A DNA stretch of 64,000 bases from Propionispira arboris (GTDB lineage Bacteria > Bacillota > Negativicutes > Selenomonadales > Selenomonadaceae), in NCBI RefSeq assembly GCF_900109225.1, contig NZ_FNZK01000008.1:62001-126000 (forward strand), given 5' to 3'. The notes under the pieces were generated by a model. That model did no database searches. It was not told the DNA's origin and saw only the letters and a program-made list of their open reading frames with translations. Positions 39,173-54,257 of this stretch are shown in pieces (position 1 is the stretch's first letter; the number at the start of each line of letters is the position of its first letter). Made by a program: the position numbers and the translations under genes.

Positions 39173-40471
39173 TTATTGAAGTAAAGTATTTACTTTATCG
39201 GCTGCTTGTTTTAAGGCAGCGGCAGCAGTCTGCTGACCGCTTAAAATTACATCACGGACATCAATCAATGCTTGTTCAGCCTGAAGTCCATTTGCACCAG
39301 GAAAACTTGCCCATTTTACAACATCCGGCATTTGTGACATAGCGGATTGCATGTTTTTATTTTCGGCAACAAAATCTTTTAATCCGTTAGGATCTTCCGT
39401 CACACCTTTGCGTGGGGGAAGGTAACCGGTACCTTTTGTCCAAAGAGCGAGTGCTGAAGGCGATTCAAGAAATTTAACAAAACGCCAAGCAGCTTTTTGT
39501 TTTTCTGGATCTTTAGAGAAAATCATCAGCATATTTCCGCCCGCAGGGACCTTTCTAGGTTTATTTTCAAAAGTTGGAAATAGTGTACTCATAACCGTGA
39601 ATTTTGCACTTTTTTCAAAGTTTTCTCGTTTCCCAATTGTTGTACAAACCATGCCTACTTTGCCACTTAGAAAAGCCTGGAAAGCTTCGTCATTGCTGGA
39701 ATGAAGCCCTGTGCCGACTTTCACCATATCAGCAATAACCTGATATGCCTGAGCAGCTTCCGGTGAGTCAAAAGCTGCAACGGTTTTATTATCTTTTTTA
39801 GTGAGCATTTTGCCCCCATTGGATTCAATTAAAGCTTGTTGAGCCCAGTTATCGGCATATTCCTGCATGAAAAATCCAACGTTGCTAGTTTTTTCTTTGA
39901 TGATTTGTGCGTATTGTGTTACTTCCTGCCAAGTACGTGGCGGTTTATTAGGGTCAAGGCCCGCTTGTTTAAATATCTCGGGATTATAATATAATACTGG
40001 GACACTCACGGAATACGGCACACCGATTTGTTTGCCATCATCGGTTGTTGCCAAAGAAATAATATTCGGCAAAAAATTATCTTGTATGAAGTTTTTATCT
40101 TCAGGCATTTGTGTACTAATAAGTTCTTGAATATCATCATATTTTAAGTTTTCGCCGGCATAATTTAAGTAACTGTAGCCCATTTGCACAACATCAGGAT
40201 TTTTACCTGAGGCCATGGCGGCTTGAAGATTTTGTGTTAATCCCTTATACATATCAGGATTAAATTTTTCGACGACTTCAATATCAGGATTTTCTTTATT
40301 AAATGTTTCAATAAGTTGCTTGACCGTAGCTCCGCCAAAACTTTCGGCATTTACATGCCAATACTCAATGGTTACTTTTTCACTGGTTTTTGTTGTGTTA
40401 CCACAACCAGTAAGTGTAATGAGAAAAAGGCTAAGACATAAAAAGGAAATTATTTTTGTGAATTGTTTCAA
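39173..40471 (-). CDS. ugpB: ABC importer substrate-binding lipoprotein, UgpB type
   Basis: A 432-residue binding lipoprotein. Signal peptide ends in LITLTGCGN with lipidated Cys23. The mature part has the family-1 solute-binding pattern (VTIEYWHVNAESFGGATVKQL, FNKENPDIEVVEKF, VPYSVSVPVLYYNPEIFKQAGLDP, AWRFVKFLES). Known relatives bind glycerol-3-phosphate, glycerophosphodiesters or sugars. A Pho-box-like array upstream favours a phosphate-ester ligand. The start is TTG with AGGAGG 8 bases ahead. Confidence 0.85.
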   Translation of the reverse strand: MKQFTKIISFLCLSLFLITLTGCGNTTKTSEKVTIEYWHVNAESFGGATVKQLIETFNKENPDIEVVEKFNPDMYKGLTQNLQAAMASGKNPDVVQMGYSYLNYAGENLKYDDIQELISTQMPEDKNFIQDNFLPNIISLATTDDGKQIGVPYSVSVPVLYYNPEIFKQAGLDPNKPPRTWQEVTQYAQIIKEKTSNVGFFMQEYADNWAQQALIESNGGKMLTKKDNKTVAAFDSPEAAQAYQVIADMVKVGTGLHSSNDEAFQAFLSGKVGMVCTTIGKRENFEKSAKFTVMSTLFPTFENKPRKVPAGGNMLMIFSKDPEKQKAAWRFVKFLESPSALALWTKGTGYLPPRKGVTEDPNGLKDFVAENKNMQSAMSQMPDVVKWASFPGANGLQAEQALIDVRDVILSGQQTAAAALKQAADKVNTLLQ

Positions 40472-40542
40472 AACAGATACCTCCTACATATACATACACA
40501 ATGTATTATGTATTCAAGTGTAACTTGTTTTTAGCAGCAGGG

Positions 40543-40570
40543 TGTTAAGGCGATGTTAAAAATAAGTTAA
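40543..40570 (-). promoter_or_regulatory. Pho-box-like array: three TTAACA/T hexamers at 11-bp period
   Basis: Read on the minus strand: TTAACT (40570-40565), five bases, TTAACA (40559-40554), five bases, TTAACA (40548-40543). This matches the PhoP recognition pattern known from Bacillus (TTAACA-like hexamers every 11 bp). It lies 72-99 bases upstream of the ugpB start, on the strand of the operon. Confidence 0.68.
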
Positions 40571-40615
40571 AAATTTTCAGCTAATACAAGAGTGATGGCG
40601 AATTTACATAAAGCA

Positions 40616-41329
40616 TCAATGCTGCGATAAGATTTTTGTTGAAATAAACCATTCAAATAAGGTGGCGGAACTGGATTGAGCGATAGGCAGCAATGTTTGT
40701 GCGGCAAAGCGGTATTGGGTAATAGTGGCATTTTCATCAACCCATGGCATGAAATCCGTTGCTATTATCGCATTATTGAGCAATAATTCAAGCGGCTTTT
40801 TTATCGGGATTAGTTCGACTTGCAGTGCGTTAAATTCGTCGTTATGTGTTTGTACCCAATGTTCAAATTTTTTATGTCCATTAAATAAATGACCACAAAC
40901 GTGATGCGGAACAGCCATATCTTGTAATAAATGTGCAGCTGCACCCAGGTAAAAAAAACTATTTGCCAAATCTTTATTTTTCACGAAACGGCAGGCTTTG
41001 GTCAGATAAACAGAAAAATCATATACTGCCGGTGAAAATCGCCATAAGCCTTTGCGCGTGATTGGATTAAAAAAATGATTGATGTTTTTGAATTCTAAAT
41101 CAGCCCACGTAACACCAAGCTGCAAAGCGTTAAGATTTTTTTCTAGGACGCAAGCAACTTCAGGGTACCCATTTTCTCGGATGATCTGCAAAGCTTCGGC
41201 ATTACAGACTTTATGTGTGTGGCATAGTGTGGAATCATGAGGCATATCTAAGATGTATTGAAGCGGGGCTGAAAGCGTGCTGAGAATAGATAATCCTTGA
41301 CTGAAATAACGGGCGGATGTCATCGTCAT
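40616..41329 (-). CDS. Zinc-dependent phospholipase C family protein
   Basis: A 237-residue protein matching the zinc phospholipase C fold (B. cereus PLC, C. perfringens alpha-toxin N-domain). Likely ligands: H39 in CHTHKV, D77 in LQLGVTWADLE, H85 in NHFFNP, H133 and D137 in FYLGAAAHLLQD, H142/H143, and H152 and E156 in GHKKFEHW. Unlike secreted toxins it has no obvious signal peptide, so the usual N-terminal Trp ligand is not generated. It probably acts at the inner face of the membrane, releasing diacylglycerol. Its ATG overlaps the glycosyltransferase stop by four bases, implying coupled translation. Confidence 0.82.
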   Translation of the reverse strand: MTMTSARYFSQGLSILSTLSAPLQYILDMPHDSTLCHTHKVCNAEALQIIRENGYPEVACVLEKNLNALQLGVTWADLEFKNINHFFNPITRKGLWRFSPAVYDFSVYLTKACRFVKNKDLANSFFYLGAAAHLLQDMAVPHHVCGHLFNGHKKFEHWVQTHNDEFNALQVELIPIKKPLELLLNNAIIATDFMPWVDENATITQYRFAAQTLLPIAQSSSATLFEWFISTKILSQH

Positions 41330-42411
41330 AATGCCACCAGCTCTATTGGTGAAATCAAGTGATCTAGAATTTTACGTGAGGCTAAAGAACTTTGTTGAAT
41401 CAACATGTTTTGTGATAGTGAGCTTAGTTGTTCAGGGTTTTCCATGAAAGTGTTTATATAGGCTCTAAGGTCGTTTTCGCATTTAGCCCAACAGCCTAAA
41501 TTCTCTTGCTCTAAGAAACGGGCATTGTCCTCTTCAATACCGGGGATTGGGGAAAATACAAGGATTGGCGTGGCTGTCGCTAAAGCTTCGGTAATGGTAA
41601 GCCCGCCTGGTTTGGTAATGATTAAATCCGATTTTTTCATTAACGAGGCAACTTGATTCGTAAAGCCAATAACGGTGTAGTTTGGTTGATGAATGGCAAT
41701 TTTTTCTAATTGTTTTTGTCGCGGCAGATCATTGCCGGTAACAAAAGTAAAATGGATTGTCCTAGGCAAAGCTTGCAATACATTGAGGATCATCAACATC
41801 GTTTCATCGGTCTGCCAGCTTGTCATGATCAGAATATTATTGAGACTGGCGGAATGAGCAACTGGAGTGAAATTAGGGCCAACGGGGATACCGCTCGGAA
41901 TGATACTCCCGCTTGGATGAAGGGAACTTTTTAACTGATTGACCAATGTGGGATGGGCAACAAAATACTGGTCGACATATGCAACATCCCAAATGGGGTG
42001 GACAATATAGTCCGTTACAATGCCAACCAGTTTAAACGATGAATGATATTTTTTTTTGTAAGCGGCTGCTGCAGCCAGCGGGAAAAAATGTGTACAAAGA
42101 ATCGTGTCTGGTTGGTATTTTTGCACTAAACGACCCATGGTCCGTTGGTTTGTTTTGGCAAGCATGTATTTGACATTGTCGAATGTTTCAATTTCACTGA
42201 TTTTGCAAATTTGCCGAAAAAATGACGGCTTGTATTCAATGAGTGTCTTGTAAGCTTTGCTTAACAGGTTAGGCAGACTATAACGCTGTAATTGCAGAAA
42301 ATCGATGGTTGTTACGGTGTAACCAGATGCCTGCAAATTTTGCTGCATATTGAAGGCAGCCTGATTATGACCGTTGCCGACAGAAACAGTTAAAATCAAC
42401 ACATTATGCAT
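41326..42411 (-). CDS. MGDG synthase/UgtP-type glycosyltransferase (processive diacylglycerol glucosyltransferase-like)
   Basis: A 361-residue GT-B glycosyltransferase. The N-terminus MHNVLILTVSVGNGHNQAA is the MGDG-synthase lipid-acceptor signature and TKPGGLTITEALATATPILVFSPIPGIEEDNARF is the UDP-sugar-binding part (GT28-like). Relatives add glucose or galactose to diacylglycerol to make glycolipids. The Met at 42411 is 8 bases after GGAGG; the frame runs on to 42480 without a better start. It forms a two-gene unit with the phospholipase C downstream, which could supply its diacylglycerol. Confidence 0.85.
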   Translation of the reverse strand: MHNVLILTVSVGNGHNQAAFNMQQNLQASGYTVTTIDFLQLQRYSLPNLLSKAYKTLIEYKPSFFRQICKISEIETFDNVKYMLAKTNQRTMGRLVQKYQPDTILCTHFFPLAAAAAYKKKYHSSFKLVGIVTDYIVHPIWDVAYVDQYFVAHPTLVNQLKSSLHPSGSIIPSGIPVGPNFTPVAHSASLNNILIMTSWQTDETMLMILNVLQALPRTIHFTFVTGNDLPRQKQLEKIAIHQPNYTVIGFTNQVASLMKKSDLIITKPGGLTITEALATATPILVFSPIPGIEEDNARFLEQENLGCWAKCENDLRAYINTFMENPEQLSSLSQNMLIQQSSLASRKILDHLISPIELVAL

Positions 42412-42474
42412 TGTAAACACCTCCGTAATACTTTCTGCTTCCATTATATTTGAAAGCGAGTCAGGATTTATTAT

Positions 42475-42510
42475 GTTCATATTATGATTGTGTTAAATTA
42501 TAATATGAAC
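42475..42510. promoter_or_regulatory. Inverted repeat upstream of the glycosyltransferase gene
   Basis: GTTCATATTAT (42475-42485) and ATAATATGAAC (42500-42510), perfect 11-bp arms with a 14-base spacer, 64 bases upstream of the start codon. Candidate operator; the regulator is unknown. Confidence 0.5.
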
Positions 42511-42689
42511 TTTTCTTGTTTAAGCTAAAATGAAAATAATTTATACTATTTCGCCCGTTTTTCAAAGTAGGGCTTTTCAATTTCATTCTTAAGTAGTAAT
42601 ATTATTAAGGCGATGTTGTCGGGGCTAGTTTTGATTGTCCCAATTGTATTGCAAATTTATGAATATTTTCTGAAGGTGAAAGTGTTAAG

Positions 42690-43280
42690 ATGGATCGTAA
42701 AACTTTTTTATTAAAAACTTTTTATATTTGCAGTGCAATGTGGCTAGCGCCGAATTTGGTTCAAGCTGGTCAGGTATTTGCAAATGCTGCTTCCCTAAAT
42801 AAGGAACCTGTAAAAATCAAAGAAACAAATTTAATATTTGGCCCGCTAACGAAAAGAGTATCAACGAACTTGATCGTAGTTCATCATATTGGGAATACGG
42901 ATGAAGATGTATCGGCTGCTGAAGTACATAAATGGCATTTGGCAAATGGCTGGGCGGGAATTGGGTATCATTTTCTGATACGCAAAGATGGAACGATTGA
43001 ACGCGGTCGTCCAATGGATACCGTTGGGGCACATACTTATGGGTATAATAAAAATTCAATTGGTATTAATATTGTGGGGAATTTTGAAGTTGCGACCCCT
43101 AAACCAGAGCAAATGGAATCGGCTTCGCGTTTGATTGCTTCGCTATGTACGAAATACCAATTTGGTCCTAATAAATATACAGTCCAAGGTCATCGCGACT
43201 TATGTGCTACGCTTTGTCCGGGTGCAAATTTGTATAGTTCAATGAATGATCTTCGAAAAAGCAGTTTTATGTATTTGTAA
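42690..43280 (+). CDS. N-acetylmuramoyl-L-alanine amidase (amidase_2/PGRP fold), exported
   Basis: A 196-residue amidase. The N-terminus has a signal-like stretch (KTFYICSAMWLAPNLVQA). Zinc ligands and catalytic residues are in LIVVHHIGN (His), GAHTYGYN (His) and GHRDLCATLCPG; GYHFLIRKDGTIERGRP is the conserved core. It would cleave the amide between MurNAc and the stem peptide in the cell envelope. Single gene with a terminator; GAAGGTGAAAG precedes the ATG. Confidence 0.88.
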   Translation: MDRKTFLLKTFYICSAMWLAPNLVQAGQVFANAASLNKEPVKIKETNLIFGPLTKRVSTNLIVVHHIGNTDEDVSAAEVHKWHLANGWAGIGYHFLIRKDGTIERGRPMDTVGAHTYGYNKNSIGINIVGNFEVATPKPEQMESASRLIASLCTKYQFGPNKYTVQGHRDLCATLCPGANLYSSMNDLRKSSFMYL

Positions 43281-43283
43281 TGA

Positions 43284-43340
43284 AAAAACGAGCCAAACAT
43301 TCGGTGTTCAATACTTGAATGCTTGGCTCGTTTAATTTTA
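43284..43340. terminator. Bidirectional terminator between amidase and LuxR genes
   Basis: AAACGAGCCAAACATTC (from 43286) pairs with GAATGCTTGGCTCGTTT with one mismatch; A and T runs flank. It overlaps the last codons of the convergent LuxR gene. Confidence 0.87.
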
Positions 43341-44093
43341 TTCTTGAATCATTTTTAGTAATTGTATTCGGTTTTTAATGCCGAGTTTTTTATAGATGCT
43401 CATAATGTGCTTTTTGAGTGTATTGGGAGTGATAATTAATGCACTGCACATTTCCTCGGTGGAAAATCCTTTTGCCATAAGTGAAAGAACCCGCTCTTCG
43501 CGAGCTGTCAATTGAAATTTGATACTACAGTCGAATGTCGATAATTTCGTGCTGGTTTGTTCTTTGGCGAGGTATGCCGTATGCAGCCTCAAGGCGAGAT
43601 GATCTTTTAGCTGGTTTAAAATAAAAGAATCCCGGTACGAAAAATTGATGGATGTTTCACTGCGATAGAGTGACAGAACTCCTAAAAAAGTATTATCAAA
43701 GGCTAAATTGATATGGATAATATGCCGAATGGAATTTGGTTGACATATTTGTTCATAGTAGGTAGATTTTAACCATACTTTTTCGTCACAAATGTCAGAA
43801 TCTAAATATACAATATTATTGGCACTGATTTTAATGCCACGAGAATAGTCATACTGGTAGTAGTGTTCTAAATATTGTTTTACGTATTCGTCAGGAAAAT
43901 TTAAGGTGATTGGTGAGCACAGCGAAAGATCTTGTTCACCAGAGGCGAGATATGAGGTTGCACGATCAAATGGAATGACCCATTGCAGTTGTTTGAGTAA
44001 AATGGAGCGCATTTTATCAATGTTGTGAATACTATGGATTTTATAGATTATATCTGTGAGTACCATCCAAACATTATTACCAAGATAGTCCAA
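43338..44093 (-). CDS. LuxR-family transcriptional regulator
   Basis: A 251-residue protein with a C-terminal LuxR/GerE HTH (LTAREERVLSLMAKGFSTEEMCSALIITPNTLKKHIMSIYKKLGIKNRIQLL). The N-terminal about 170 residues look like a GAF-type sensor domain (FDRATSYLAS..., HIIHINLAFDNTFLGVLSLYRS). The ligand is unknown. The longest start is a TTG at 44093 behind GGTGGTG; an ATG at 44066 is the alternative. It is divergent from the biotin-dependent carboxylase cluster and is its likely regulator. Confidence 0.86.
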   Translation of the reverse strand: MDYLGNNVWMVLTDIIYKIHSIHNIDKMRSILLKQLQWVIPFDRATSYLASGEQDLSLCSPITLNFPDEYVKQYLEHYYQYDYSRGIKISANNIVYLDSDICDEKVWLKSTYYEQICQPNSIRHIIHINLAFDNTFLGVLSLYRSETSINFSYRDSFILNQLKDHLALRLHTAYLAKEQTSTKLSTFDCSIKFQLTAREERVLSLMAKGFSTEEMCSALIITPNTLKKHIMSIYKKLGIKNRIQLLKMIQE

Positions 44094-44404
44094 AATATCA
44101 CCACCATACCTAATTATATAAATAAATCGCTTCTTTGAAGGCTGGAATTTATTATGAAAAATAAGTTATATCGTATATTGGTTAGATTATAACATGTTTT
44201 AATGGATTTCTACTACTTTTTTACCATAAATGCAAAGATCACAAAGGATAGATGGTCAATCGGAGTAATTGAATTTGAGTTGCAGCTAACTTATAATGAA
44301 AATATAAACTTAACAGGTAAGAAAATCAAGGCAAGGGTGCTGATATTTCCATTTATGGAATCAGGACGCTTGTCTTTTTTTATAGAAAAGGGAGGGGCTT
44401 TTAA
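44094..44404. other. Divergent promoter region of LuxR gene and carboxylase cluster
   Basis: No supported gene. A dyad GTTATA (44165-44170)/TATAAC (44188-44193) may be an operator or part of a promoter. A 68-codon frame from 44202 lacks a ribosome site. GGGAGGGG at about 44390 serves the next gene. Confidence 0.5.
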
Positions 44405-45388
44405 ATGAGTAAATATGAGGTTATTCTCGATACATTACCAGCGACACAGGAGAGAACTGAAATTTTATTCCGTCAGGCGGGTGATGGATTTATCCAAGTT
44501 GAATATGGACATGAACAACGAGTGGAATTGTTGGATTCATTTAGAATTTTGGCGGTAGACAGTAAAATTAAGCAGGTTAATATTCAGGGATTGATCGAAA
44601 CCGTACCAAGTTTACGAGCAAATTTGTTTCACTTTGATCCATTGGTTATCTCTCCTGGAAAATTGATTGCAGAAATAAAAAAAGCCGAAGAATCTATTAC
44701 GAGTGTTGAAGAGATGGTGATTGACTCTAGAATCATTACATTGCCGATTGCTTTTGAAGACAGCCAAACAAAAAAAGCAGTGGCATTGTATCAAAAACAG
44801 GTTCGTCCTGATGCACCAAATTGTGTTGATGGCTATAATCTTGAATATATGGCACAGTGTAATGGCTGCTCGGTTGATGATATAAAACATATGCTTTTAG
44901 ATACGTACTGGTATAACAGTGGTTGTGGATTTTGGCCTGGGGGTGGATTTTTTTGGCCGATGGATCCTCGCTGCAAAATGATTGTACCGAAATATAACCC
45001 ACCGAGGATTTGGACACCAGAGGGAGCTGTTGGAATTGGTGGTGCCTGCTTGTTTACGTATACCACCGCAACTGGTGGCGGTTATCAGCTGTTTGGTCGA
45101 ACCATTCCGACATTCCAATTGGCGATGAACCATCCGCAATTCAAAGAAAAACCGTTTTTGTATCATCCGTCAGGAGATCGCTTGAAATTTGTTGAGGTCT
45201 CAGAGGCGGAAATTGATCACATTTATGCACATGTTCACGATAAAACGGATTACAAATATGAAATAGAAGAAAGTAAAATTGTTGTAAAAGAATATTTAGA
45301 GTTTTTGGCTGCACCCGAAGTACAAAAAGGCGCGGAAGATTTTGCGAAACGGCAAGCTAAAGGGGCAGCAAAAGCACCGAAACTTTAA
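44405..45388 (+). CDS. Biotin-dependent carboxyltransferase subunit, KipI/PxpB-like (CT_C_D), urea-carboxylase-like form
   Basis: A 327-residue protein, longer than KipI/PxpB (about 240). Segments RQAGDGFIQVEYG, VPSLRANLFHFDP, RPDAPNCVDGYNLEYMAQCNG, PKYNPPRIWTPEGAVGIGGACLFTYTTATGGGYQLFGRTIP are those of the CT_C_D half of the urea carboxylase/5-oxoprolinase carboxyltransferase domain; from memory the match is nearer to the urea-carboxylase version. With the next protein it should form the carboxyl-transfer site. The substrate is not determinable. GGGAGGGG is 8 bases from the ATG. Confidence 0.83.
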   Translation: MSKYEVILDTLPATQERTEILFRQAGDGFIQVEYGHEQRVELLDSFRILAVDSKIKQVNIQGLIETVPSLRANLFHFDPLVISPGKLIAEIKKAEESITSVEEMVIDSRIITLPIAFEDSQTKKAVALYQKQVRPDAPNCVDGYNLEYMAQCNGCSVDDIKHMLLDTYWYNSGCGFWPGGGFFWPMDPRCKMIVPKYNPPRIWTPEGAVGIGGACLFTYTTATGGGYQLFGRTIPTFQLAMNHPQFKEKPFLYHPSGDRLKFVEVSEAEIDHIYAHVHDKTDYKYEIEESKIVVKEYLEFLAAPEVQKGAEDFAKRQAKGAAKAPKL

Positions 45389-45407
45389 TCGTAAACTGTG
45401 AGGAGGT

Positions 45408-46406
45408 TTGAAGTATATGTTAAAAGTTATAAAAGCGGGAATCGAAGTTTTGGTAGAAGATTGGCCTGGCCGCTTGGGGTACATGGGTTTAGGAATGGCG
45501 GCAGCCGGTGCTATGGATAATTTGGCATTACAGTTAGGAAATGCAGTTTTGCAGAATGAAATCGGTGAAGCTGGGCTTGAAATAGCTGGTGGATACTGCC
45601 AATTTGAATTTATCCAAGCCGGTGTTATTGCGATTTGTGGTGCAGATATGGCGGTGAAATTGAATGGTGAGCCGATTGCTTTATGGGAAGCTATTCCTGT
45701 GAAAATAGGGGATCAGCTAGAATTTGATCATTTTGGGACAACGGGTTTTCGAGCATACTTATGTATTGCTGGCGGTATTGATGTGCCAGTTTATCTTGGC
45801 AGCAAATCAACCTGTTTATTTGGTTCTTATGGTGGATTTCAGGGCAGAAAACTTCAAGTGGGTGATGTGATTGAGGCAGCGGCAAAAGTCAAAGACAGTC
45901 TTGCTGGGCGAAAACTTAACCCTAAATATATTCCTCAATATACGAATGAATGGGAATTACGTGCTATTCCCGGACCAAATTCGGCACCAGATTATGTAAG
46001 CGAAGCCGGTATGGATTATTTATTTTCGACAACAATGAAAATTTCACATAATGCCAATCGGGCGGCCTATCGGTTAGCAGAAGTACCGGATTATTTTTGG
46101 GCACGAGAAGATGGTGGGAAAGGTGGCAGCCATCCTTCTAATATCGTAGATCATGGGTACAATATGCGCGGGGCCATTAATGTGACAGGCAACACACCTT
46201 CATTGCTTATAGCGGATGGACCGACACTGGGTGGTTTTGTCTGTGTTGCAAATGTAATTTATGCTGATTTATGGAAAATTGGGCAAGGAATTCCCTCGCG
46301 CGATAAAGTAAAATTCAAGTTGACGACGGTGGAAGAGGCTGTGTCAGCCCGCCGGGACCGTATCGCTATGCTGGCAGCGGAAGATCTTGTTATTACAAAC
46401 AGATAA
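45408..46406 (+). CDS. Biotin-dependent carboxyltransferase subunit, KipA/PxpC-like (CT_A_B)
   Basis: A 332-residue CT_A_B protein, partner of the preceding CT_C_D subunit. Landmarks: VLVEDWPGRLGYMGLGMAAAGAMDNLALQLGN at the N-terminus, AICGADM, YLCIAGGIDVPVYLGSKSTC, and near the end ITGNTPSLLIADGPTLGGF-like sequence. In PxpABC this pair phosphorylates or carboxylates a lactam for ring opening; in urea carboxylase the same domains carboxylate urea. AGGAGG lies ahead of the ATG. Confidence 0.86.
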   Translation: MKYMLKVIKAGIEVLVEDWPGRLGYMGLGMAAAGAMDNLALQLGNAVLQNEIGEAGLEIAGGYCQFEFIQAGVIAICGADMAVKLNGEPIALWEAIPVKIGDQLEFDHFGTTGFRAYLCIAGGIDVPVYLGSKSTCLFGSYGGFQGRKLQVGDVIEAAAKVKDSLAGRKLNPKYIPQYTNEWELRAIPGPNSAPDYVSEAGMDYLFSTTMKISHNANRAAYRLAEVPDYFWAREDGGKGGSHPSNIVDHGYNMRGAINVTGNTPSLLIADGPTLGGFVCVANVIYADLWKIGQGIPSRDKVKFKLTTVEEAVSARRDRIAMLAAEDLVITNR

Positions 46407-46441
46407 TATGTAATGAAAAAAAGGCAATGGAGGAATGAAAA

Positions 46442-46660
46442 ATGGAATATACATTAAAAGCGCCGATGCCAGGATTGGTTGCAAGAGTTGTGGTAGTGGA
46501 AGGTGAAAGCGTAACAGAGGGACAAGAATTAGCAGTTATTAACTGCATGAAAATAGAAATTAGCTGCCCAACCGGAAAACGTGGTACGGTGAAGAAAATT
46601 CTCGTTGGTGAATGGGATGAAATGGACGTTGATACGCCGATGATCCTTCTGGAAGTTTAA
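46442..46660 (+). CDS. Biotinyl carrier protein
   Basis: A 72-residue biotinyl/lipoyl domain without the long N-terminal part of AccB. The biotinylated lysine is K37 in VINCMKIE, a variant of the usual AMKM. The Pro-rich start LKAPMPGLVARV is typical. It would shuttle carboxybiotin from the biotin carboxylase encoded next to the carboxyltransferase pair. AATGGAGGAATG lies ahead of the ATG. Confidence 0.9.
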   Translation: MEYTLKAPMPGLVARVVVVEGESVTEGQELAVINCMKIEISCPTGKRGTVKKILVGEWDEMDVDTPMILLEV

Positions 46661-46693
46661 ATAATTACTAGATAGAGAGGCGGAAATGCGTTT

Positions 46694-48070
46694 ATGATAA
46701 AAAAAATACTGATAGCAAATCGTGGTGAAATCGTAAGTCGAATTATAAAGACCTGCAATCTTATGGGGATTGCAACGGTTGTTGTATATTCAGAAGCTGA
46801 TAAAGATGCTTCTTATGTTAAACAGGCGAATGAGAGTTATTGCATTGGGGCACCAAGTCCAATAAAAAGTTATTTAAATATTGAATCTATAGTAACTGTA
46901 CTGAAAAAATCGAAAGCAGATGCGGTTCATCCCGGGTATGGATTTTTATCGGAAAACGCTGGTTTTGCAAAAGCTGTTGTAGCATCTGGAGCAATCTGGA
47001 TTGGTCCGGATCCTAAGGTTTTGGAAAATATCGAATCAAAATGCTACTGTCGTAAACTGGCCAGTGAATTGGACTTGCCGGTTACACCGGGAACGATTCA
47101 GCCGATTGAAACGATTCGTGATATTTATAATATTGCTGAATCCGTGGGGGTTCCACTGATGCTGAAGCTCGATAAGGGCGGTGGCGGCAAGGGCATCCAA
47201 CGCATTGATGAAATACAGGATTCAAAAAAAATGCAAGCGATGCTGGATAGTTTGCAGCGGGTCGGTGTGATGGCATTTGCTTCGGGGGATGTGTATGTAG
47301 AAAAAGTCATTGAGCGAGCAAGGCATATTGAAGTACAATTCTTGGCGGATCAGGATCAGCAGGTAATTTGTTTGGGGGAACGAGAGTGTTCAATCCAAAG
47401 GCGTTATCAGAAAATCATTGAAGAATCACCATCGGTGGTTGTTAGTGAAACGGAGCGGCAAAGATTGTTTGCCTATACAAAAAAATTAATTCAGACAATG
47501 CGTTATACGGGTGCCGGCACCATTGAATATCTTAGAGATATAGAGGGATCTTATTATTTTATGGAAATTAATGCTCGGCTCCAGGTGGAACATCCTGTTA
47601 CTGAATATATTACTAAGATCGATATTGTTGAACAGCAAATTCGCATTGCTGCTGGTGAGAAATTGGCGATGCAGCAACAGGATGTCAGTTTTTGTGGACA
47701 TGCGATTGAGTGCCGCATTTATGCCGAAGATCCAGAGACATTCATGCCGTCTCCCGGGATAATCAGGAAACTATCTTTACCAGATACAATCATAAATACC
47801 AGTTTGCGAATTGATTCCGTGGCTGAAGAGGGTGGAAATGTACCACCATATTATGATCCTTTGTTTGCGAAGGTAATCAGCTGGGGCGCGGATCGAGAGG
47901 CAGCGATTGAAATTTTAAAAACAGGCTTAATGTCTTTTGTTGTAGAGGGAATTAAAACAACCATTCGTGCCGATTTGGCAATATTAAATCATCCCAAATT
48001 TGTCGCAGGTGATATCAATACGGCTTTTCTGAGTAAAGAACATTGTTTGGCACAGGCAAAATTGAGTTGA
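46694..48070 (+). CDS. Biotin carboxylase
   Basis: A 458-residue biotin carboxylase (AccC-like). It carboxylates biotin on the carrier protein using ATP and bicarbonate. Motifs: ILIANRGEIVSRIIKTC, ATP-grasp loop KGGGGKGIQ (usual form GGGGRGM), RHIEVQFLAD, ERECSIQRRYQKIIEESPS and MEINARLQVEHPVTEYI. All core residues appear intact. Its place between carrier and PxpA-like genes marks it as a dedicated copy, not the fatty acid synthesis enzyme. Confidence 0.92.
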   Translation: MIKKILIANRGEIVSRIIKTCNLMGIATVVVYSEADKDASYVKQANESYCIGAPSPIKSYLNIESIVTVLKKSKADAVHPGYGFLSENAGFAKAVVASGAIWIGPDPKVLENIESKCYCRKLASELDLPVTPGTIQPIETIRDIYNIAESVGVPLMLKLDKGGGGKGIQRIDEIQDSKKMQAMLDSLQRVGVMAFASGDVYVEKVIERARHIEVQFLADQDQQVICLGERECSIQRRYQKIIEESPSVVVSETERQRLFAYTKKLIQTMRYTGAGTIEYLRDIEGSYYFMEINARLQVEHPVTEYITKIDIVEQQIRIAAGEKLAMQQQDVSFCGHAIECRIYAEDPETFMPSPGIIRKLSLPDTIINTSLRIDSVAEEGGNVPPYYDPLFAKVISWGADREAAIEILKTGLMSFVVEGIKTTIRADLAILNHPKFVAGDINTAFLSKEHCLAQAKLS

Positions 48071-48084
48071 AGGAGGCAGTCCCG

Positions 48085-48843
48085 ATGAAAATTGATGTAA
48101 ATGTCGATATGGGCGAAAGCTTTGGTCGCTATATTTTGGGTGATGATGAAGCCCTAATGCCCTGGGTAAGCTCAGCGAATATTGCTACAGGGTTTCATGC
48201 AGGTGATCCACTGGTGATGGAACGAACGATTGCCTGGGCGAAAAAATATAACGTTGCTGTTGGCGCGCATGTGGGGTTAAATGATCGGCAGGGGTTTGGT
48301 CGCAGGCAGATCAATATATCGGTAGAGGAACTGAAAAGTGATATTTTATATCAATTAGGAGCGATCGATGCTTTTTTGAAGATACACAATATGAAATTAC
48401 AACATATAAAGCCGCATGGGATTTTATATCGTATGGTTGGTGAACAGGAAATATATATTGATGCTTTTCTCGACACCGTGGAATTGTATAATAAAGATTT
48501 GTATATTATGCTGCATACGGGCTGCGAAGCGTTAAAACGTGCACAAAAGCGAGGTTTGAAAACGGCACCAGAAATCTTGATTGATTTGGGCTATGATGCT
48601 GAGGGAAACTGGATTTTAGAAAGAATTAAAAAAGAAAGATCACCACAGGAAGTGGCTGCACGAGCTTTGCGAGCAGTATGCGATCACAAAATCGATACCG
48701 TCGCTGGAGATCTGATCCCAGTAGAAGGGCGTACTATATGTATCCACGGAGATGCACCGAATGCTGTTTCTGTAGCCAAAGCAGTTCGACAGGCATTGGA
48801 AGGGGCGGGCGTTGAACTTGCTGCGCTGGATAAGAGTATGTAA
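48085..48843 (+). CDS. pxpA: LamB/YcsF family protein (5-oxoprolinase subunit PxpA-like)
   Basis: A 252-residue protein of the LamB/YcsF family. Motifs: VNVDMGESFGRYILGDDEALMPWVSSANIATGFHAGDP, VGAHVGLNDRQGFGRR, KPHGILYRM and ICIHGDAPNAV. In E. coli and B. subtilis PxpA works with PxpBC to open 5-oxoproline to glutamate. The ATG at 48085 has AAGGAGG at 48070-48076; a longer frame to 48043 overlaps the biotin carboxylase gene. Confidence 0.9.
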   Translation: MKIDVNVDMGESFGRYILGDDEALMPWVSSANIATGFHAGDPLVMERTIAWAKKYNVAVGAHVGLNDRQGFGRRQINISVEELKSDILYQLGAIDAFLKIHNMKLQHIKPHGILYRMVGEQEIYIDAFLDTVELYNKDLYIMLHTGCEALKRAQKRGLKTAPEILIDLGYDAEGNWILERIKKERSPQEVAARALRAVCDHKIDTVAGDLIPVEGRTICIHGDAPNAVSVAKAVRQALEGAGVELAALDKSM

Positions 48844-48907
48844 TAGACAGTCAGGTGAAGTTTGCATTCTACTTTATAGTGGGAAATTTAGAATAAGGCG
48901 GTGACCT

Positions 48908-49411
48908 ATGAAGAAAATTAATTCTTTAGATATATCGGTGGCTGTATTGGCAGCTCTGTCTTGTTTAGGTGCTTTAGCTGGTTTGCCTATTTGGGCTTTG
49001 TTTATTGGCTGGGCTTGGTATTTCACATTAGGGGCAACGGTTGCTGGTTTTAAACAGGCAATACCACCGATGCTTGCTGGTTCTATGCTGGCGGTGCTGG
49101 CAATTGTCCTGATCGATAGTTTGAGCGGCATGTTATCACCGTTGGGGGCAATGATCTTTGCCGTATTTATCACAGTGTTTTTATTGATGCTGACATTGAA
49201 AATCAAGGGACTCGATTGCTCCTTGGCATCGTTTAATTCTTATTCTTGTATGTTTGCCGGTTATTATGCTGCATCTTTTCCAGTGCAAACTGTATATGTA
49301 TATAATTTGGGGTATGCAGTACTGTGGATTACCGGAGCAAATTTCTTGGGTTTAGTTTTTGGCTGGTTAAGTATTAAATTAGCTGGATTAGGGAAAACAG
49401 CCAGTGAATAA
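48908..49411 (+). CDS. DUF1097-family membrane protein
   Basis: A 167-residue protein with about five hydrophobic segments, fitting the DUF1097 family (KINSLDISVAVLAALSCLGALAGLPIWALFIGWAWYF-type start). The function is unknown. It follows the carboxylase cluster on the same strand by 64 bases, so it may transport the cluster's substrate; this is inference. GGCGGTGACCT precedes the ATG. Confidence 0.75.
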   Translation: MKKINSLDISVAVLAALSCLGALAGLPIWALFIGWAWYFTLGATVAGFKQAIPPMLAGSMLAVLAIVLIDSLSGMLSPLGAMIFAVFITVFLLMLTLKIKGLDCSLASFNSYSCMFAGYYAASFPVQTVYVYNLGYAVLWITGANFLGLVFGWLSIKLAGLGKTASE

Positions 49412-49429
49412 ATTATATAAAGAGCAATC

Positions 49430-49462
49430 AAAAGCTGCGTTTTATTATGACGCAGCTTTTTT
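49430..49462 (+). terminator. Intrinsic terminator of the biotin-dependent carboxylase cluster
   Basis: AAAAGCTGCGT (49430-49440) with ACGCAGCTTTT (49450-49460), 9-base loop, T run. Confidence 0.88.
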
Positions 49463-49471
49463 GTGTGAACT

Positions 49472-49511
49472 AAAAAAGAATGTCTACGCTTTGAGTCATA
49501 GACATTCTTTT
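49472..49511. terminator. Second, bidirectional terminator for the convergent C39-like gene
   Basis: AAAAGAATGTCTA pairs with TAGACATTCTTTT (49499-49511), 12-base loop; T run on the minus strand for the C39-like gene. Confidence 0.85.
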
Positions 49512-49548
49512 GTATGTGATTATCGAAAAATAAATATTTATCAGAGTT

Positions 49549-50301
49549 TTATTGAGGACTTGCAACAACCCATTGTTGATCTTGTTGACCTTGTGGCAGC
49601 ATATGGGCATCAAACCACATGTAAAAAAACTTTTCAGCCGGATTAATTGTATAGCCGTCTTGCTGGTGATCAGCTGTATCATAAGAGTCCGCTAAAATCA
49701 GTACATCATCGGCTATCGTATCAGTTCCCATTGTATCATAGCCAATAATGACACGCCAATGTCCGCCCCATTCAATATTTTCAACCATAATAGGTGTATT
49801 GTTTTTGAGATTTTTCAAAATGAAATTTTTTACATCCTGCGGGTTTGAAAATTTAGGCTGATCAAGACTGGATGAAACATTCCAGCCAATTTGTTTGAAA
49901 AATTTAACCATGCCAGCGGTATCGGTGCCAATGGCTGGTTTTGTATCCATACTAGCCATTAGTTTTTTCTCATCCCAAGTCGTGTTGCCAAAATGGTATA
50001 GTACCGTTAAAGCAGCAGATGGACCGCAGCTTATTTCAGTCGTTTGCTGATAGGTTTTATAATTGCTTAAAATAGTTAAGTTTTTTGTAGACTTTAGATC
50101 ATAAAAATCTAGAACTGAATAGTAAGGTGAGTGCTTTACATTGCCGATTCCATTATAAGCGGATGCACCTTCGCTGGTAAGGTTATAGTCTGGTGGATAG
50201 GAAATTACCTTGTTACTTGCTTGGGCAGAGGTCCCGGTGAAGGTGAAGATTGTCAGAGCCAAGATAGTCGTCATACAGAAAAAATAATTTTTTGCTTTCA
50301 T
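49549..50301 (-). CDS. Exported C39-like cysteine peptidase family protein
   Basis: A 250-residue protein with a signal peptide (MKAKNYFFCMTTILALTIFTF..., cleavage near AQA-SN). The papain-like C39-type triad is visible: Cys in TTEISCGPSAALTVLYHFG, His in EWGGHWRVIIGYD, Asp in LILADSYD. C39 peptidases usually process double-glycine leaders as part of transporters, but stand-alone exported members like this are of unknown role. ATGs at 50304 and 50301 are both possible; the second has better spacing to AAGGAG. Confidence 0.8.
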   Translation of the reverse strand: MKAKNYFFCMTTILALTIFTFTGTSAQASNKVISYPPDYNLTSEGASAYNGIGNVKHSPYYSVLDFYDLKSTKNLTILSNYKTYQQTTEISCGPSAALTVLYHFGNTTWDEKKLMASMDTKPAIGTDTAGMVKFFKQIGWNVSSSLDQPKFSNPQDVKNFILKNLKNNTPIMVENIEWGGHWRVIIGYDTMGTDTIADDVLILADSYDTADHQQDGYTINPAEKFFYMWFDAHMLPQGQQDQQWVVASPQ

Positions 50302-50365
50302 CATATCGCTCCTTTTTCATATAATAGTCTGCAATACAATTATATAAGATTTATTAAGAATTTTG

Positions 50366-51697
50366 TTAATTTGAGAAATTTTTCTTTAAAACACTTTCGA
50401 ATTGGTCCATATGTTTTTTATATTCTTCGATGCTGAAGATTGGTTTGAAATCTTTTTTGATGTTTTTTGCTTTTTCTCCATTTTCTTTTAATAAACGATA
50501 GGCGGTTAATGCCATGATTTTTGCGGTAGCAATATAGGCGATATCTTTGTTGATAATTTTAAAGTCTTTTGAATGGAGATCGCCGCTGACACCGCCTGTT
50601 TCAAACGTTAAGACTGGCATTACGTGTGTTAAATCACCAACATCACTTGAGCCAGCACTGGATTCATGAGGCTGGGCGGTACGTATTGATCCCTGCGGTA
50701 AAATCATTTTGGCAATGTCTAAAATATCACTGGACGGTGCTCGCGGAATGGTTGGTAAATATCCCGGTGAAGTATAGATTTCGAGATTAGCACCCAACGC
50801 CAGAGCACCTGCTTCAAAAGCCCGATCCGTTTTTTGGCTGGCATCTTCGATTGCTTGGACATTGTTAGCGCGTACGAGGCTTTCGATGACCACTTCTTCA
50901 GGAATCACATTAACGAGGCTGCCGCCTTTCGTAAGAATGGTATGCACTCTTACCATATCTTTATCTTGAAAGGTTTCCCGCTGCATCGCTAAGGCGTTTA
51001 GCCCTAATGCTGCGGCATTTAGTGCATTGACACCTAGATGCGGATTGGCTGCGGCATGAGCGGCGCGTCCTTTGTAGCGAATTACTTTTGAAACGAAACC
51101 ATTACTAAGGCGATCACCGACAACCACGTCAGCGGTGCCAGGTCTGGAATGATGGGTTATGGCGATATCAATATCATTGAAAGCACCGATTCGAAGCAGT
51201 TCTGATTTTCCACCGCCATATTTAATCAGGGTTTTTTCTTTTAAGTTAAGTTTGAATTCAACTTCACCATATTCTTCCGAAGGCACGGCGAAAAATGTAA
51301 CATTTCCCGCCAGTGAATTTTTAATTTCTTCATCCGTTAATGCAAGCGCTGCACCAATCATTCCGGCTAATTGACAATGGTGACCACAAGCATGACAGGC
51401 ACCGGTTGTTTTGTCAGCATAAGCGTGATGTGGTGAAGATACGGCATCAAGTTCCCCAATTAAAGCTAGGTTAATTTCATTTTCTTGCGGGTCTTTCAAA
51501 TAAGCTTTTACGCCAGTGATGGCAAGACTTTTTTCTGCTTTTGCGGTGTTTTTTTGCAGGAGGTCAAAAACCTTACTGGCAGTTCTTGTTTCTTTATAGC
51601 CTAGTTCAGGATGTTGATAAATATCTTCCGCAAAATCAATGATTTGTTGTCTGTGTTCATCAATAATTTTAAGAATTTTTTCTTCTATTTTATCCAT
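50366..51697 (-). CDS. M20-family amidohydrolase (AbgB/p-aminobenzoyl-glutamate hydrolase-like)
   Basis: A 443-residue M20D metallohydrolase. Metal ligands lie in GACHACGHHCQLAG (CxHxxxH-type), FAVPSEEYGEV (Glu pair) and near the C-terminus LHSKDF (His). The dimerisation insert begins at SKVIRYKGRAAHAAANPHLGVNALNA. Relatives deacylate N-acyl amino acids or p-aminobenzoyl-glutamate in the cytosol. It starts 29 bases after metQ ends, so it is in the importer operon and may process the imported compound. Confidence 0.87.
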   Translation of the reverse strand: MDKIEEKILKIIDEHRQQIIDFAEDIYQHPELGYKETRTASKVFDLLQKNTAKAEKSLAITGVKAYLKDPQENEINLALIGELDAVSSPHHAYADKTTGACHACGHHCQLAGMIGAALALTDEEIKNSLAGNVTFFAVPSEEYGEVEFKLNLKEKTLIKYGGGKSELLRIGAFNDIDIAITHHSRPGTADVVVGDRLSNGFVSKVIRYKGRAAHAAANPHLGVNALNAAALGLNALAMQRETFQDKDMVRVHTILTKGGSLVNVIPEEVVIESLVRANNVQAIEDASQKTDRAFEAGALALGANLEIYTSPGYLPTIPRAPSSDILDIAKMILPQGSIRTAQPHESSAGSSDVGDLTHVMPVLTFETGGVSGDLHSKDFKIINKDIAYIATAKIMALTAYRLLKENGEKAKNIKKDFKPIFSIEEYKKHMDQFESVLKKNFSN

Positions 51698-51726
51698 ATG
51701 GCATCATTTCCTTTATCTCGGCAATT

Positions 51727-52554
51727 TTATTTTAATTCTTCAGGAATAAACCAGTAGTTGTTTTTGTTGTTTTCTTTCATATAGTCTTTAAATTCTGCTG
51801 ATTTGTAAGCAGCTACGATATCTTTTGCCCATTGGGAATCTTTATTTTTTTCGTCGACGACGACAACCAGTTCCAATTCGCGACTAACATTTTCTTGTAA
51901 TAATCCTTTTGCCGCATCCATTTTAGCTGAATAGACAATACTGCCCGGAATGACAGCAAAATCTAAATCATCGAGTGAACGAGGCAGTTGTGCGGAATCC
52001 ATTTCCATGATTTCAATGTTATGAATATTATCTTTGATGTCATTTTTAGTTAATGTTGTTGGATTTGCCGCATCATTCAGTGTAATCCACCCTGCTTTTG
52101 CCAGAAGTCTGAATGCTCTGGCTGCATTGGAAGGGTCCATCGGAATTCCGACTTTTTGACCTGGGGCAACCTGATCTAAAGATTTGTATTTGTTGGAGAA
52201 AATGGCAGCTGGCACAGTTGGGATTGGCACGATAGGTGTTAATTTCCCGCCTTTTTCTTTGTTGTAATTGTCAGCATAGGCCGTATGTTGTGCTACATTT
52301 AAATCAACGCTGCCTTCAGAAAGAGCTACTTCAGATTGCAATAAATCGGAAAAATCAATAGATTTGACGGTATAACCTTTTTTTTCTAAGATTGGTTTGA
52401 TGGCTTTATCAAAAAGTTCATTATAAGGACCCGGCGATACACCAATGGTGATTTCTTTTTTTTCTTTTGTGTTTTCGGCTTGATTGGAATCTCCACAGCC
52501 CAGTATGGTAAATAGTAATGTTATCAGTAATAATCCGGTAAAAAATCTTTTCAT
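51727..52554 (-). CDS. metQ: MetQ/NlpA-family substrate-binding lipoprotein
   Basis: A 275-residue lipoprotein with signal peptide ending in ILGC (Cys20). The mature sequence has the NlpA pattern (ITIGVSPGPYNELFDKAIKPILEKKGY, SVDLNVAQHTAY, VGIPMDPSNAARAFRLLAKAGWI). Relatives bind methionine and derivatives. The Met at 52554 starts the signal peptide; the frame upstream runs into metI. Adjacent to its permease and ATPase. Confidence 0.88.
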   Translation of the reverse strand: MKRFFTGLLLITLLFTILGCGDSNQAENTKEKKEITIGVSPGPYNELFDKAIKPILEKKGYTVKSIDFSDLLQSEVALSEGSVDLNVAQHTAYADNYNKEKGGKLTPIVPIPTVPAAIFSNKYKSLDQVAPGQKVGIPMDPSNAARAFRLLAKAGWITLNDAANPTTLTKNDIKDNIHNIEIMEMDSAQLPRSLDDLDFAVIPGSIVYSAKMDAAKGLLQENVSRELELVVVVDEKNKDSQWAKDIVAAYKSAEFKDYMKENNKNNYWFIPEELK

Positions 52555-52585
52555 AAAAATAACCTGCTTTCGTTTGTTTTTGTAA

Positions 52586-53239
52586 TTAATGTCTTCTGGC
52601 TTTTTGTGCCAAATGGTTGCCGAAATTTTGAATACACTGGACAAAAATAATTAAAATAAATACAGTGAACACAATAACTTCTGTGTTAAAACGTTGATAT
52701 CCATAGGAAATAGCAATGTCGCCAATTCCGCCGCCACCAATGGTTCCAGCCATTGCGGTAGCACCGATTAAACCGATTGTGGCAGTAGTTAATGATAATA
52801 TGATAGATCCTAAAGCTTCGGGAAGCAAAAAATAACGAATGATTTGTATCGTAGTTGCTCCCATGGCTTGGGCAGCTTCGATGATCCCTTGATTGACTTC
52901 TAACAAAGAATTTTCCACTAAGCGAGCAATAAAAGGAATGATATAGATAATCAAAGGAACAATAGCAGCTTTTGTCCCAATTGATGTACCAACAATCAAT
53001 TTTGTGAAGGGCACGATAGCTACCAATAAAATGATAAAAGGCAAGGAACGTACGATGTTGACCAAATTGTTCAAAGAGCGAAACATAAATGTGTTTTTAC
53101 GTATGCCGCCTGCTTTTGTCAAAACTAATAAAACACCCAGGGGTATTCCGCCGAGAGCCCCGAGCAGCAGGGAGATGCTAACCATTTGTAGTGTTTCAAG
53201 AATCGCTTTGATTATTTGTGCAGTTGTTATGGTTGCCAT
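52586..53239 (-). CDS. metI: MetI-family ABC permease
   Basis: A 217-residue permease with five predicted membrane segments, the MetI length. The EAA loop is EAAQAMGATTIQIIRYFLLPEALGSI. The N-terminus ETLQMVSISLLLGALGGIPLGVLL is typical. Its first 44 bases lie inside the 3' end of metN, so translation is coupled; GAGGTGG in metN precedes its ATG. Confidence 0.9.
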   Translation of the reverse strand: MATITTAQIIKAILETLQMVSISLLLGALGGIPLGVLLVLTKAGGIRKNTFMFRSLNNLVNIVRSLPFIILLVAIVPFTKLIVGTSIGTKAAIVPLIIYIIPFIARLVENSLLEVNQGIIEAAQAMGATTIQIIRYFLLPEALGSIILSLTTATIGLIGATAMAGTIGGGGIGDIAISYGYQRFNTEVIVFTVFILIIFVQCIQNFGNHLAQKARRH

Positions 53240-54257
53240 TTTCTACCACCTCGATTCCTACGTTTTTTTGTAATAAATATTGATGTGTTTTCTCAATGTT
53301 TTCTGGGGTACCATTTAATTCAACTGTTAAATGCCCTAATATATCACCCTGCAATTCCGTTACATTTGCAAATAAAATATTGGGCTGTACACTATATTGA
53401 TAACAAGCTTCACTTAATAAAGCCTGCTGAGAATTTTCACCAATGAATTTTAGTTTTAAGACCAGTTTATTTTTATTGCTGAAATCAAGTGTGTTTAATA
53501 TTACTGGTGGAATTTCATCATGTACGATTGTACGAATGAAATTTTTGGTTGTTTGTTGCTGTGGGTTTTCAAAAATATCAAGCAAAGAACCTTCTTCGAT
53601 AATTTCACCTTTTTCCATAACAGCAACACGATTACAGATTTCTCGAATAACATTCATTTCATGGGTGATGATTAAAATCGTAATCTTGTATTTTTTATTG
53701 ATTTCTTTTAATAGTTGTAAAATGGAGCCTGTCGTTTGTGGATCAAGTGCCGAGGTTGCTTCATCACATAAGAGAATAAATGGGTTTGTTGCTAAGGCTC
53801 TGGCAATGCCGACACGCTGCTTTTGTCCGCCCGATAGTTCATCTGGATAGGCATCTGCCTTGCTGGCAAGACCGACAAAATTAAGCAGTTCTGTAATCCG
53901 TGTATAGATGGTGTTTTTATCCGTTCCCTCCAATAAAAGTGGAATAGAAACATTTTCAAAAACTGTCTTTGACTCCAGCAGATTAAAATGCTGAAAGATC
54001 ATCCCGATTTGCTTGCGCAGCAAACGAAGTTTTTGGGGTGATAAGTTAGAAAGGTTCTGGTCGTTTACGATAACTTCACCGAAGGTGGGTTGTTCCAGAT
54101 AATTTACCATGCGGATCAAGGTGCTTTTTCCGGCACCGCTAAAGCCGATTACACCAAAAATATCACCTTCGTTGATTTTTAAATTGATGTTTTTTAAAGC
54201 TTGAATTTCACTGCTATTTTTATAAAATATTTTTTGTATATTTTTTAATTCAATCAT
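53196..54257 (-). CDS. metN: MetN-family ABC ATPase
   Basis: A 353-residue ATPase with a C-terminal NIL/ACT-like regulatory domain, as in methionine importers. Walker A IGFSGAGKSTLIRM, Q-loop MIFQHFNLL, signature LSGGQKQRVGIARAL, Walker B LLCDEATSALDPQT. The ATG at 54257 has AAGGAG at 54263-54268. First gene of metN-metI-metQ-amidohydrolase, driven by a strong promoter with an inverted repeat. No SAM or T-box riboswitch is visible upstream. Confidence 0.9.
   Translation of the reverse strand: MIELKNIQKIFYKNSSEIQALKNINLKINEGDIFGVIGFSGAGKSTLIRMVNYLEQPTFGEVIVNDQNLSNLSPQKLRLLRKQIGMIFQHFNLLESKTVFENVSIPLLLEGTDKNTIYTRITELLNFVGLASKADAYPDELSGGQKQRVGIARALATNPFILLCDEATSALDPQTTGSILQLLKEINKKYKITILIITHEMNVIREICNRVAVMEKGEIIEEGSLLDIFENPQQQTTKNFIRTIVHDEIPPVILNTLDFSNKNKLVLKLKFIGENSQQALLSEACYQYSVQPNILFANVTELQGDILGHLTVELNGTPENIEKTHQYLLQKNVGIEVVENGNHNNCTNNQSDS

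Follow-up and report, generated by a model that had tools for sequence, protein, structure and literature searches.

We identified a six-gene operon in the anaerobe Propionispira arboris (Negativicutes) that probably encodes a multi-subunit, biotin-dependent lactam carboxylase-hydrolase. The operon lies at positions 44405-49411 (+ strand) of a 64,000-nucleotide stretch of contig NZ_FNZK01000008.1, which we call the window. Judged by sequence, this group of genes (the cassette) is a urea-carboxylase-type biotin-dependent carboxylase combined with a PxpA-like hydrolase. Our leading guess for the substrate, and a tentative one, is 2-pyrrolidinone (γ-butyrolactam), which would be converted to 4-aminobutyrate (GABA); the second guess is δ-valerolactam, which would yield 5-aminovalerate. 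From the parts that are present, their intact motifs, their co-inheritance, and their gene neighbourhoods, we infer both the substrate and each catalytic step. (Below, L, C, and H numbers denote loci, contigs, and homologous records.)

The operon contains six open reading frames (ORFs) with small intergenic gaps. An initial annotation of the window had named six genes and their families, and all six are present on the + strand:

44405..45388, + strand: CT_C_D carboxyltransferase subunit, 327 amino acids (PF02682, E = 2.4e-39)
45417..46406, + strand: CT_A_B carboxyltransferase subunit (PF02626, E = 8e-77)
46442..46660, + strand: biotin carrier, 72 amino acids (Biotin_lipoyl, PF00364, E = 1.3e-13; INCMKIE motif)
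46694..48070, + strand: biotin carboxylase, 458 amino acids (Biotin_carb_N, ATP-grasp, and Biotin_carb_C, E = 1e-32 to 7e-57)
48085..48843, + strand: PxpA-like LamB/YcsF hydrolase, 252 amino acids (LamB_YcsF, PF03746, E = 3.7e-82)
48908..49411, + strand: DUF1097 membrane protein, 167 amino acids (PF06496, E = 1.8e-20; six predicted helices)

For CT_A_B, the ATG at 45417, with GAGGAGG just 5' of it, is better placed than the TTG at 45408 that begins the longest ORF. Similarly, the ATG at 48085 of the PxpA-like gene, which has AAGGAGG upstream, is better placed than the start of the longest ORF. Both upstream sequences would make good ribosome-binding sites.

In the mechanism that we propose, a biotin-protein ligase would attach biotin to the carrier, and the biotin carboxylase (BC) would use ATP and bicarbonate to form carboxybiotin. 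The split carboxyltransferase (CT) would then use the carboxybiotin to carboxylate a small lactam at its ring nitrogen. The resulting N-carboxy-lactam would be an activated amide whose ring could be opened by the PxpA-like hydrolase, and the carbamate product would shed CO2 to give a free ω-amino acid, which would be the substrate of a class III transaminase. The DUF1097 protein, a candidate transporter, may move the substrate or the product through the membrane; its AlphaFold2 model had no significant fold match in the PDB.

Evidence for a carboxylation step

The carrier retains the INCMKIE biotinylation motif, including its lysine, and the active-site motifs of the BC (GGGGKG, RHIEVQ, EINARLQVEHP, and ECRIYAEDP) are intact in an alignment with solved enzymes. 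At the level of sequence, the motifs of both proteins are those of a biotin-dependent carboxylase in the broad sense. Furthermore, the BCs of the anaerobes' cassettes are monophyletic (SH-aLRT of 100 in a quick tree) despite differing gene positions: in Propionispira the BC gene is one of the operon's own genes, several Clostridia have it upstream, and that of C. ljungdahlii is divergent. Because the BC and the CT subunits have been inherited together in these relatives, the argument of the initial annotation that a dedicated carrier and BC imply a true carboxylation step appears to be sound. A gene for biotin ligase, BioY, or BioB adjoins several cassettes, and the Propionispira genome encodes two biotin ligases. 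A structure of the acyl-CoA carboxylase complex of M. smegmatis with the PxpBC-like proteins MSMEG_0435-MSMEG_0436 bound (PDB 9yx5) may serve as a precedent for PxpBC-like CTs meeting biotin enzymes.

In several Clostridia, the upstream BC is fused to a cytidylate-kinase-like domain. BCs with an extra C-terminal domain are found at L029:3390-5351 (- strand; the domain is Cytidylate_kin2, PF13189), L031, L033, L034, L037, and L040. The BCs from Propionispira, a Selenomonadales metagenome-assembled genome, and Family XIII do not have the extra domain, and these loci also do not have an adjacent transaminase.

The carboxyltransferase subunits are related to urea carboxylase

It had also been claimed that the CT_C_D subunit looks more like urea carboxylase than like KipI, and several comparisons bear this out. 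The two CT subunits score 228 and 304 bits against the urea carboxylase model (TIGR02712), versus 46.8 bits for the PxpB model (cut-off 145.55) and 170.3 bits for the PxpC model (cut-off 500), so they fall below both of the latter cut-offs. The TIGR02712 cut-off (1303.85) is for a single polypeptide and is not reached by the split genes of the cassette, whose top subunit scores 457. The closest solved relatives of the CT subunits are the urea carboxylase and urea amidolyase of K. lactis (3va7/5i8i). The AlphaFold2 model of CT_C_D (pLDDT 88.5) matches the K. lactis urea amidolyase/carboxylase over its whole length with a TMq of 0.78; E. coli YbgJ and the M. smegmatis complex 3mml each reach about 0.5.

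Phylogenetic comparison, which had been suggested along with that claim, likewise places the CTs with the urea/guanidine carboxylases and not with PxpBC. Maximum-likelihood trees of CT_C_D and of CT_A_B contain five groups. The window's group of anaerobe cassettes has support of 100/100, and the anaerobe cassettes, the cassettes of Thermomicrobia and Actinobacteria, and the urea/guanidine carboxylases together are separated from PxpBC with support of 100/100 for CT_A_B and 97/97 for CT_C_D; support for the branching order inside this cassette-urea/guanidine group is weak, and a number of its long branches were flagged.

Recurrence of the cassette and its neighbours

In a scan of genome contigs, CT_C_D proteins that are 76-98% identical to the window's were found in 13 further anaerobe genomes, and every contig of sufficient length has the same set of genes, so the cassette is not a chance arrangement. 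The copy in Propionispira raffinosivorans is 98% identical. The same scan identified cassettes in Thermomicrobia and Actinobacteria. Among 398 genomes drawn from the phylum, the only close copy was in P. arboris itself. Cassette loci of sufficient length have the carrier, both CTs, and the PxpA-like protein throughout, and most have the BC; the exception is L048, where the scan shows no carrier. A second and more distant type of cassette is common on alphaproteobacterial plasmids and is also present in the haloarchaeon Haladaptatus. Public annotations describe homologues of the cassette as parts of acetyl-CoA carboxylase, allophanate hydrolase, or 5-oxoprolinase. Two records labelled as Acinetobacter phage MD-2021a (H86 and H87, 328-379 kb) contain a CT_C_D homologue (36% identical, annotated as accC_2); these "phage" records may be bacterial sequence.

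In relatives, the cassette adjoins a transaminase that is ~69-94% identical to that of C. ljungdahlii. Relatives with an adjacent 4-aminobutyrate transaminase include C. ljungdahlii, Acetobacterium, Lachnospiraceae, and Ruegeria, and there is often a semialdehyde-converting dehydrogenase as well. The proteins from C. ljungdahlii (L029) and L048 pass the cut-off for 4-aminobutyrate transaminase (TIGR00700), and L048 also has an SSADH-family dehydrogenase. L048 lies outside the anaerobe clade, as do two more examples: Ruegeria, with an annotated GABA transaminase and a succinate-semialdehyde dehydrogenase, and Haladaptatus, with an aldehyde dehydrogenase and two class III transaminases. In several anaerobes, genes for a PucR regulator and an iron alcohol dehydrogenase are found with the cassette or the transaminase. 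Of 10 anaerobe genera, 6 have a GABA-transaminase-type gene next to the cassette, as compared to 0 of 21 loci of classic PxpB, from the 5-oxoprolinase PxpABC (Fisher p = 2.9e-4); if any class III transaminase is counted, then 2 of the 21 control loci have one (p = 0.006); both p values are optimistic because the loci are related and not independent. We favour a lactam as the substrate because these neighbouring transaminases and dehydrogenases consume ω-amino acids, which are the products of opening simple lactams. Thus, of the urea-, amide-, or lactam-like substrates that the initial annotation proposed, the neighbourhood favours the lactam.

In P. arboris, the gene that is closest to the GABA transaminases is on contig C15 (47% identical), together with PucR and an aldehyde dehydrogenase. 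Another set of genes in this genome (L103, C21:1-16000; ORF starts only) includes PucR, a class III transaminase, and an iron alcohol dehydrogenase. We rejected this set as a partner of the cassette, as its neighbours point to a reductive pyrimidine locus, and it is likely involved in reductive pyrimidine degradation.

The same design might act instead on another compound with an N-C=O group, such as a hydantoin, a cyclic ureide, or a lactam that is produced when a molybdenum hydroxylase acts on an N-heterocycle. Cassettes in Thermomicrobium and Sulfitobacter do occur with subunits of the xanthine-dehydrogenase-family type, and the cassette in Roseateles has a hydantoinase/oxoprolinase and an allantoin permease nearby. 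However, such genes are absent near the window's operon and were not seen with its anaerobe relatives, which show recurrent transaminase and alcohol dehydrogenase genes, so we consider this explanation rather unlikely for P. arboris.

At seven loci from Thermomicrobia (L024, L041, L042, L043, L045, L050, and L051), the cassette is downstream of a xanthine-dehydrogenase-family gene, and at several Thermomicrobia loci, genes for a binding protein/ABC transporter lie between the two. This neighbourhood suggests a different or additional substrate.

The PxpA-like hydrolase and classic PxpABC

The PxpA-like protein scores above the cut-off for PxpA, a subunit of 5-oxoprolinase (275.9 versus 226 for NCBIfam NF003814). 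It retains the His, Asp, and Glu motifs of the hydrolase, and its ADR motif is replaced by IDL. ADR is found in 14 of 14 classic PxpA proteins, and [IVP]DL is found in all cassette-A members. If the arginine binds the carboxylate of 5-oxoproline, then its loss might fit a lactam that lacks this carboxylate.

The P. arboris genome also has a separate locus for classic PxpABC on contig C23 (L066:6334-14898), with two PxpB/PxpC pairs, NRAMP, and DUF1445. Since this locus includes PxpA as well as the PxpB/PxpC pairs, 5-oxoproline is already covered in Propionispira, and we rejected the cassette as the cell's main 5-oxoprolinase. At the C23 locus, a 147-residue carrier and a BC adjoin the second PxpB/PxpC pair, and overall, 9 of the 23 classic PxpB loci that we examined (C23 included) encode both of these proteins. 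The cassette is therefore not alone in having biotin proteins next to PxpABC-type genes, and the contrast that was initially drawn between the cassette and a biotin-free PxpABC was too sharp. Other such loci are L079:4977-10702 (L. plantarum pLQ802), L082, L086, L090, L091, L092, L096, and L097. Some of the so-called 5-oxoprolinases may be biotin-linked.

It is conceivable that the cassette is a second 5-oxoprolinase, in which ATP-dependent activation of 5-oxoproline by the CTs would proceed as in PxpABC, and the biotin proteins would be unnecessary or would belong to another enzyme. This would fit the PxpA-like partner, which passes the NF003814 cut-off, and a PxpB-type GFxPG loop in CT_C_D (see below). 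We think that this is improbable: classic PxpABC is encoded elsewhere in the genome, the CTs score far under the PxpB and PxpC cut-offs and lie outside of the PxpBC group, the BC is co-inherited with the CTs, and the ADR motif is altered.

Urea and guanidine are unlikely substrates

Guanidine carboxylase needs Asp1584 (in K. lactis numbering) and is distinguished from urea carboxylase by Asp1330 (PMC11410670); in urea carboxylase, position 1330 is Asn (PMC12186494). We checked these positions in aligned sequences, 60 of CT_C_D and 59 of CT_A_B. All 10 urea/guanidine carboxylases carry Asp1584, whereas the cassette and PxpB sequences, the window's among them, all have a deletion there and show the PxpB-type GFxPG loop or near variants in this region. 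At position 1330, the window (within a GAIN motif) and its group have Asn, and the guanidine-type enzymes have Asp; Gln occupies this position in almost every PxpC and in the cassettes of proteobacteria and haloarchaea. Because the cassette lacks Asp1584 and has the PxpB-type loop instead, urea or guanidine is unlikely to be its substrate. Guanidine riboswitches are frequent, though not universal, close to guanidine carboxylase genes; there was no Rfam match to one in positions 40000-54000 and no allophanate hydrolase above the model's cut-off in the Propionispira genome; deiminase subunits were not searched for. Given the residues, the riboswitch search, and the allophanate hydrolase search, we rejected both compounds, and the urea part of the initially proposed range of substrates is not supported.

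A split urea carboxylase, with the PxpA-like protein in place of allophanate hydrolase, would account for the overall similarity of the CTs to urea carboxylase and for the Asn at 1330, but we consider it very unlikely, given the deletion of Asp1584 in all members of the cassette family, the allophanate hydrolase result, and the operon's neighbours, among which we recognised no urea-related gene. It is hardly credible that the cassette is a guanidine carboxylase or stray parts of an acyl-CoA carboxylase: homologues are automatically annotated as acetyl-CoA carboxylase, but the CTs are of the urea-carboxylase/PxpBC type rather than the acyl-CoA type, neither of the signature Asp residues (1330 and 1584) is present, and 40000-54000 has no guanidine riboswitch.

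Besides the optimism of the p values, several points weigh against the assignment of the cassette to a lactam. The Propionispira operon has no transaminase alongside it, so the link to GABA comes from its relatives, and there it comprises one clade and a few cases outside of it. The Thermomicrobia and proteobacterial loci are mostly found with the xanthine-dehydrogenase family, a TorT-type binding protein, and ABC transporters, and substrates may differ between lineages. That the ADR arginine binds the carboxylate is our own supposition, and any part that this arginine or Asp1584 plays in lactam chemistry is likewise conjectural.

Regulation and flanking elements

Three features flank the operon:

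43338..44093, - strand: LuxR-family (GerE) regulator, by family match, upstream of the operon and divergent from it
44269..44297, + strand: weak promoter-like sequence upstream of the operon, TTGAAT-17-TATAAT (10/12 matches)
49431..49462, + strand: hairpin and T-run after the DUF1097 gene (AAAGCTGCGT, a 9-nucleotide loop, ACGCAGCTTT, then TTT)

The LuxR-family protein possibly controls the operon. A divergent LuxR-family gene is also upstream of the cassette in L028 and L038, which are from the two closest relatives with longer loci. Sites of the TTGAAT-17-TATAAT type are not significant on their own (24 were found, versus 20.0 expected from shuffled sequences). The hairpin, which was read off the sequence and whose loop exceeds the length allowed in our terminator scan, is likely the terminator of the operon.

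Significance

Lactams with five- or six-membered rings are exceptionally stable, and to our knowledge, few enzymes that open them have been described. If our proposal is correct, then the cassette would represent a new, biotin-dependent means of amide cleavage, which could be useful for making the monomers of nylon-4 or nylon-5. It would also help to explain how anaerobes live on nitrogen compounds, and it would correct the widespread annotation of these proteins as acetyl-CoA carboxylase, allophanate hydrolase, or 5-oxoprolinase. Finally, it would suggest an origin for the urea and guanidine carboxylases. A bolder and rather doubtful extension is that the cassette is the missing enzyme for opening unsubstituted γ-butyrolactam, a biotin-dependent, N-carboxylating lactamase, and that gene fusion and the gain of Asp1584 turned split lactam carboxylases of this kind into the one-chain urea and guanidine carboxylases.

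Comparison with known systems

A search of open-licence papers found none that describes the cassette. Adjacent split UCT genes have been noted, with no function given (PMC3199775).

The lactamases CapAB and OplAB (PMC8453981, PMC11033972) share with the proposed mechanism a role for bicarbonate and the use of ATP to activate a lactam before it is hydrolysed. They belong to the hydantoinase/oxoprolinase family, however, and are not biotin carboxylases. Mechanism C, which was considered for caprolactamase (PMC8453981), is close in spirit to our proposal for the cassette, albeit in another protein family. OplAB is strongly active on δ-valerolactam and has only trace activity on γ-butyrolactam, and that study states that no mild enzymatic protocol had previously been reported (PMC11033972).

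PxpABC and the cassette share a LamB/YcsF hydrolase, a split CT_C_D and CT_A_B, and the GFxPG loop. In contrast to PxpABC, the cassette has CTs from another branch of the tree, a long CT_C_D, a dedicated BC and carrier, an altered ADR motif, and Asn rather than Gln at position 1330. The classic loci with a carrier and a BC (such as C23 and L. plantarum pLQ802) also have biotin proteins beside PxpABC-type genes, but their CTs are of the PxpB/PxpC type, they usually include DUF1445 and NRAMP, and their BCs are elsewhere in the tree.

Guanidine carboxylase has CTs of the same family and the same set of activities (predicted, in the case of the cassette), but the cassette lacks Asp1330 and Asp1584. 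Urea carboxylase shares the BC, the carrier, CT_A_B, and CT_C_D with the cassette, as well as the grouping of the CTs, the top fold match, and Asn1330. It differs in that these are parts of one chain, whereas the cassette has four proteins; and the cassette has a PxpB-type loop instead of Asp1584 and a PxpA-like protein in place of allophanate hydrolase. Nevertheless, the mechanism that we propose, carboxylation of a nitrogen followed by hydrolysis, would mirror that of urea carboxylase and allophanate hydrolase.

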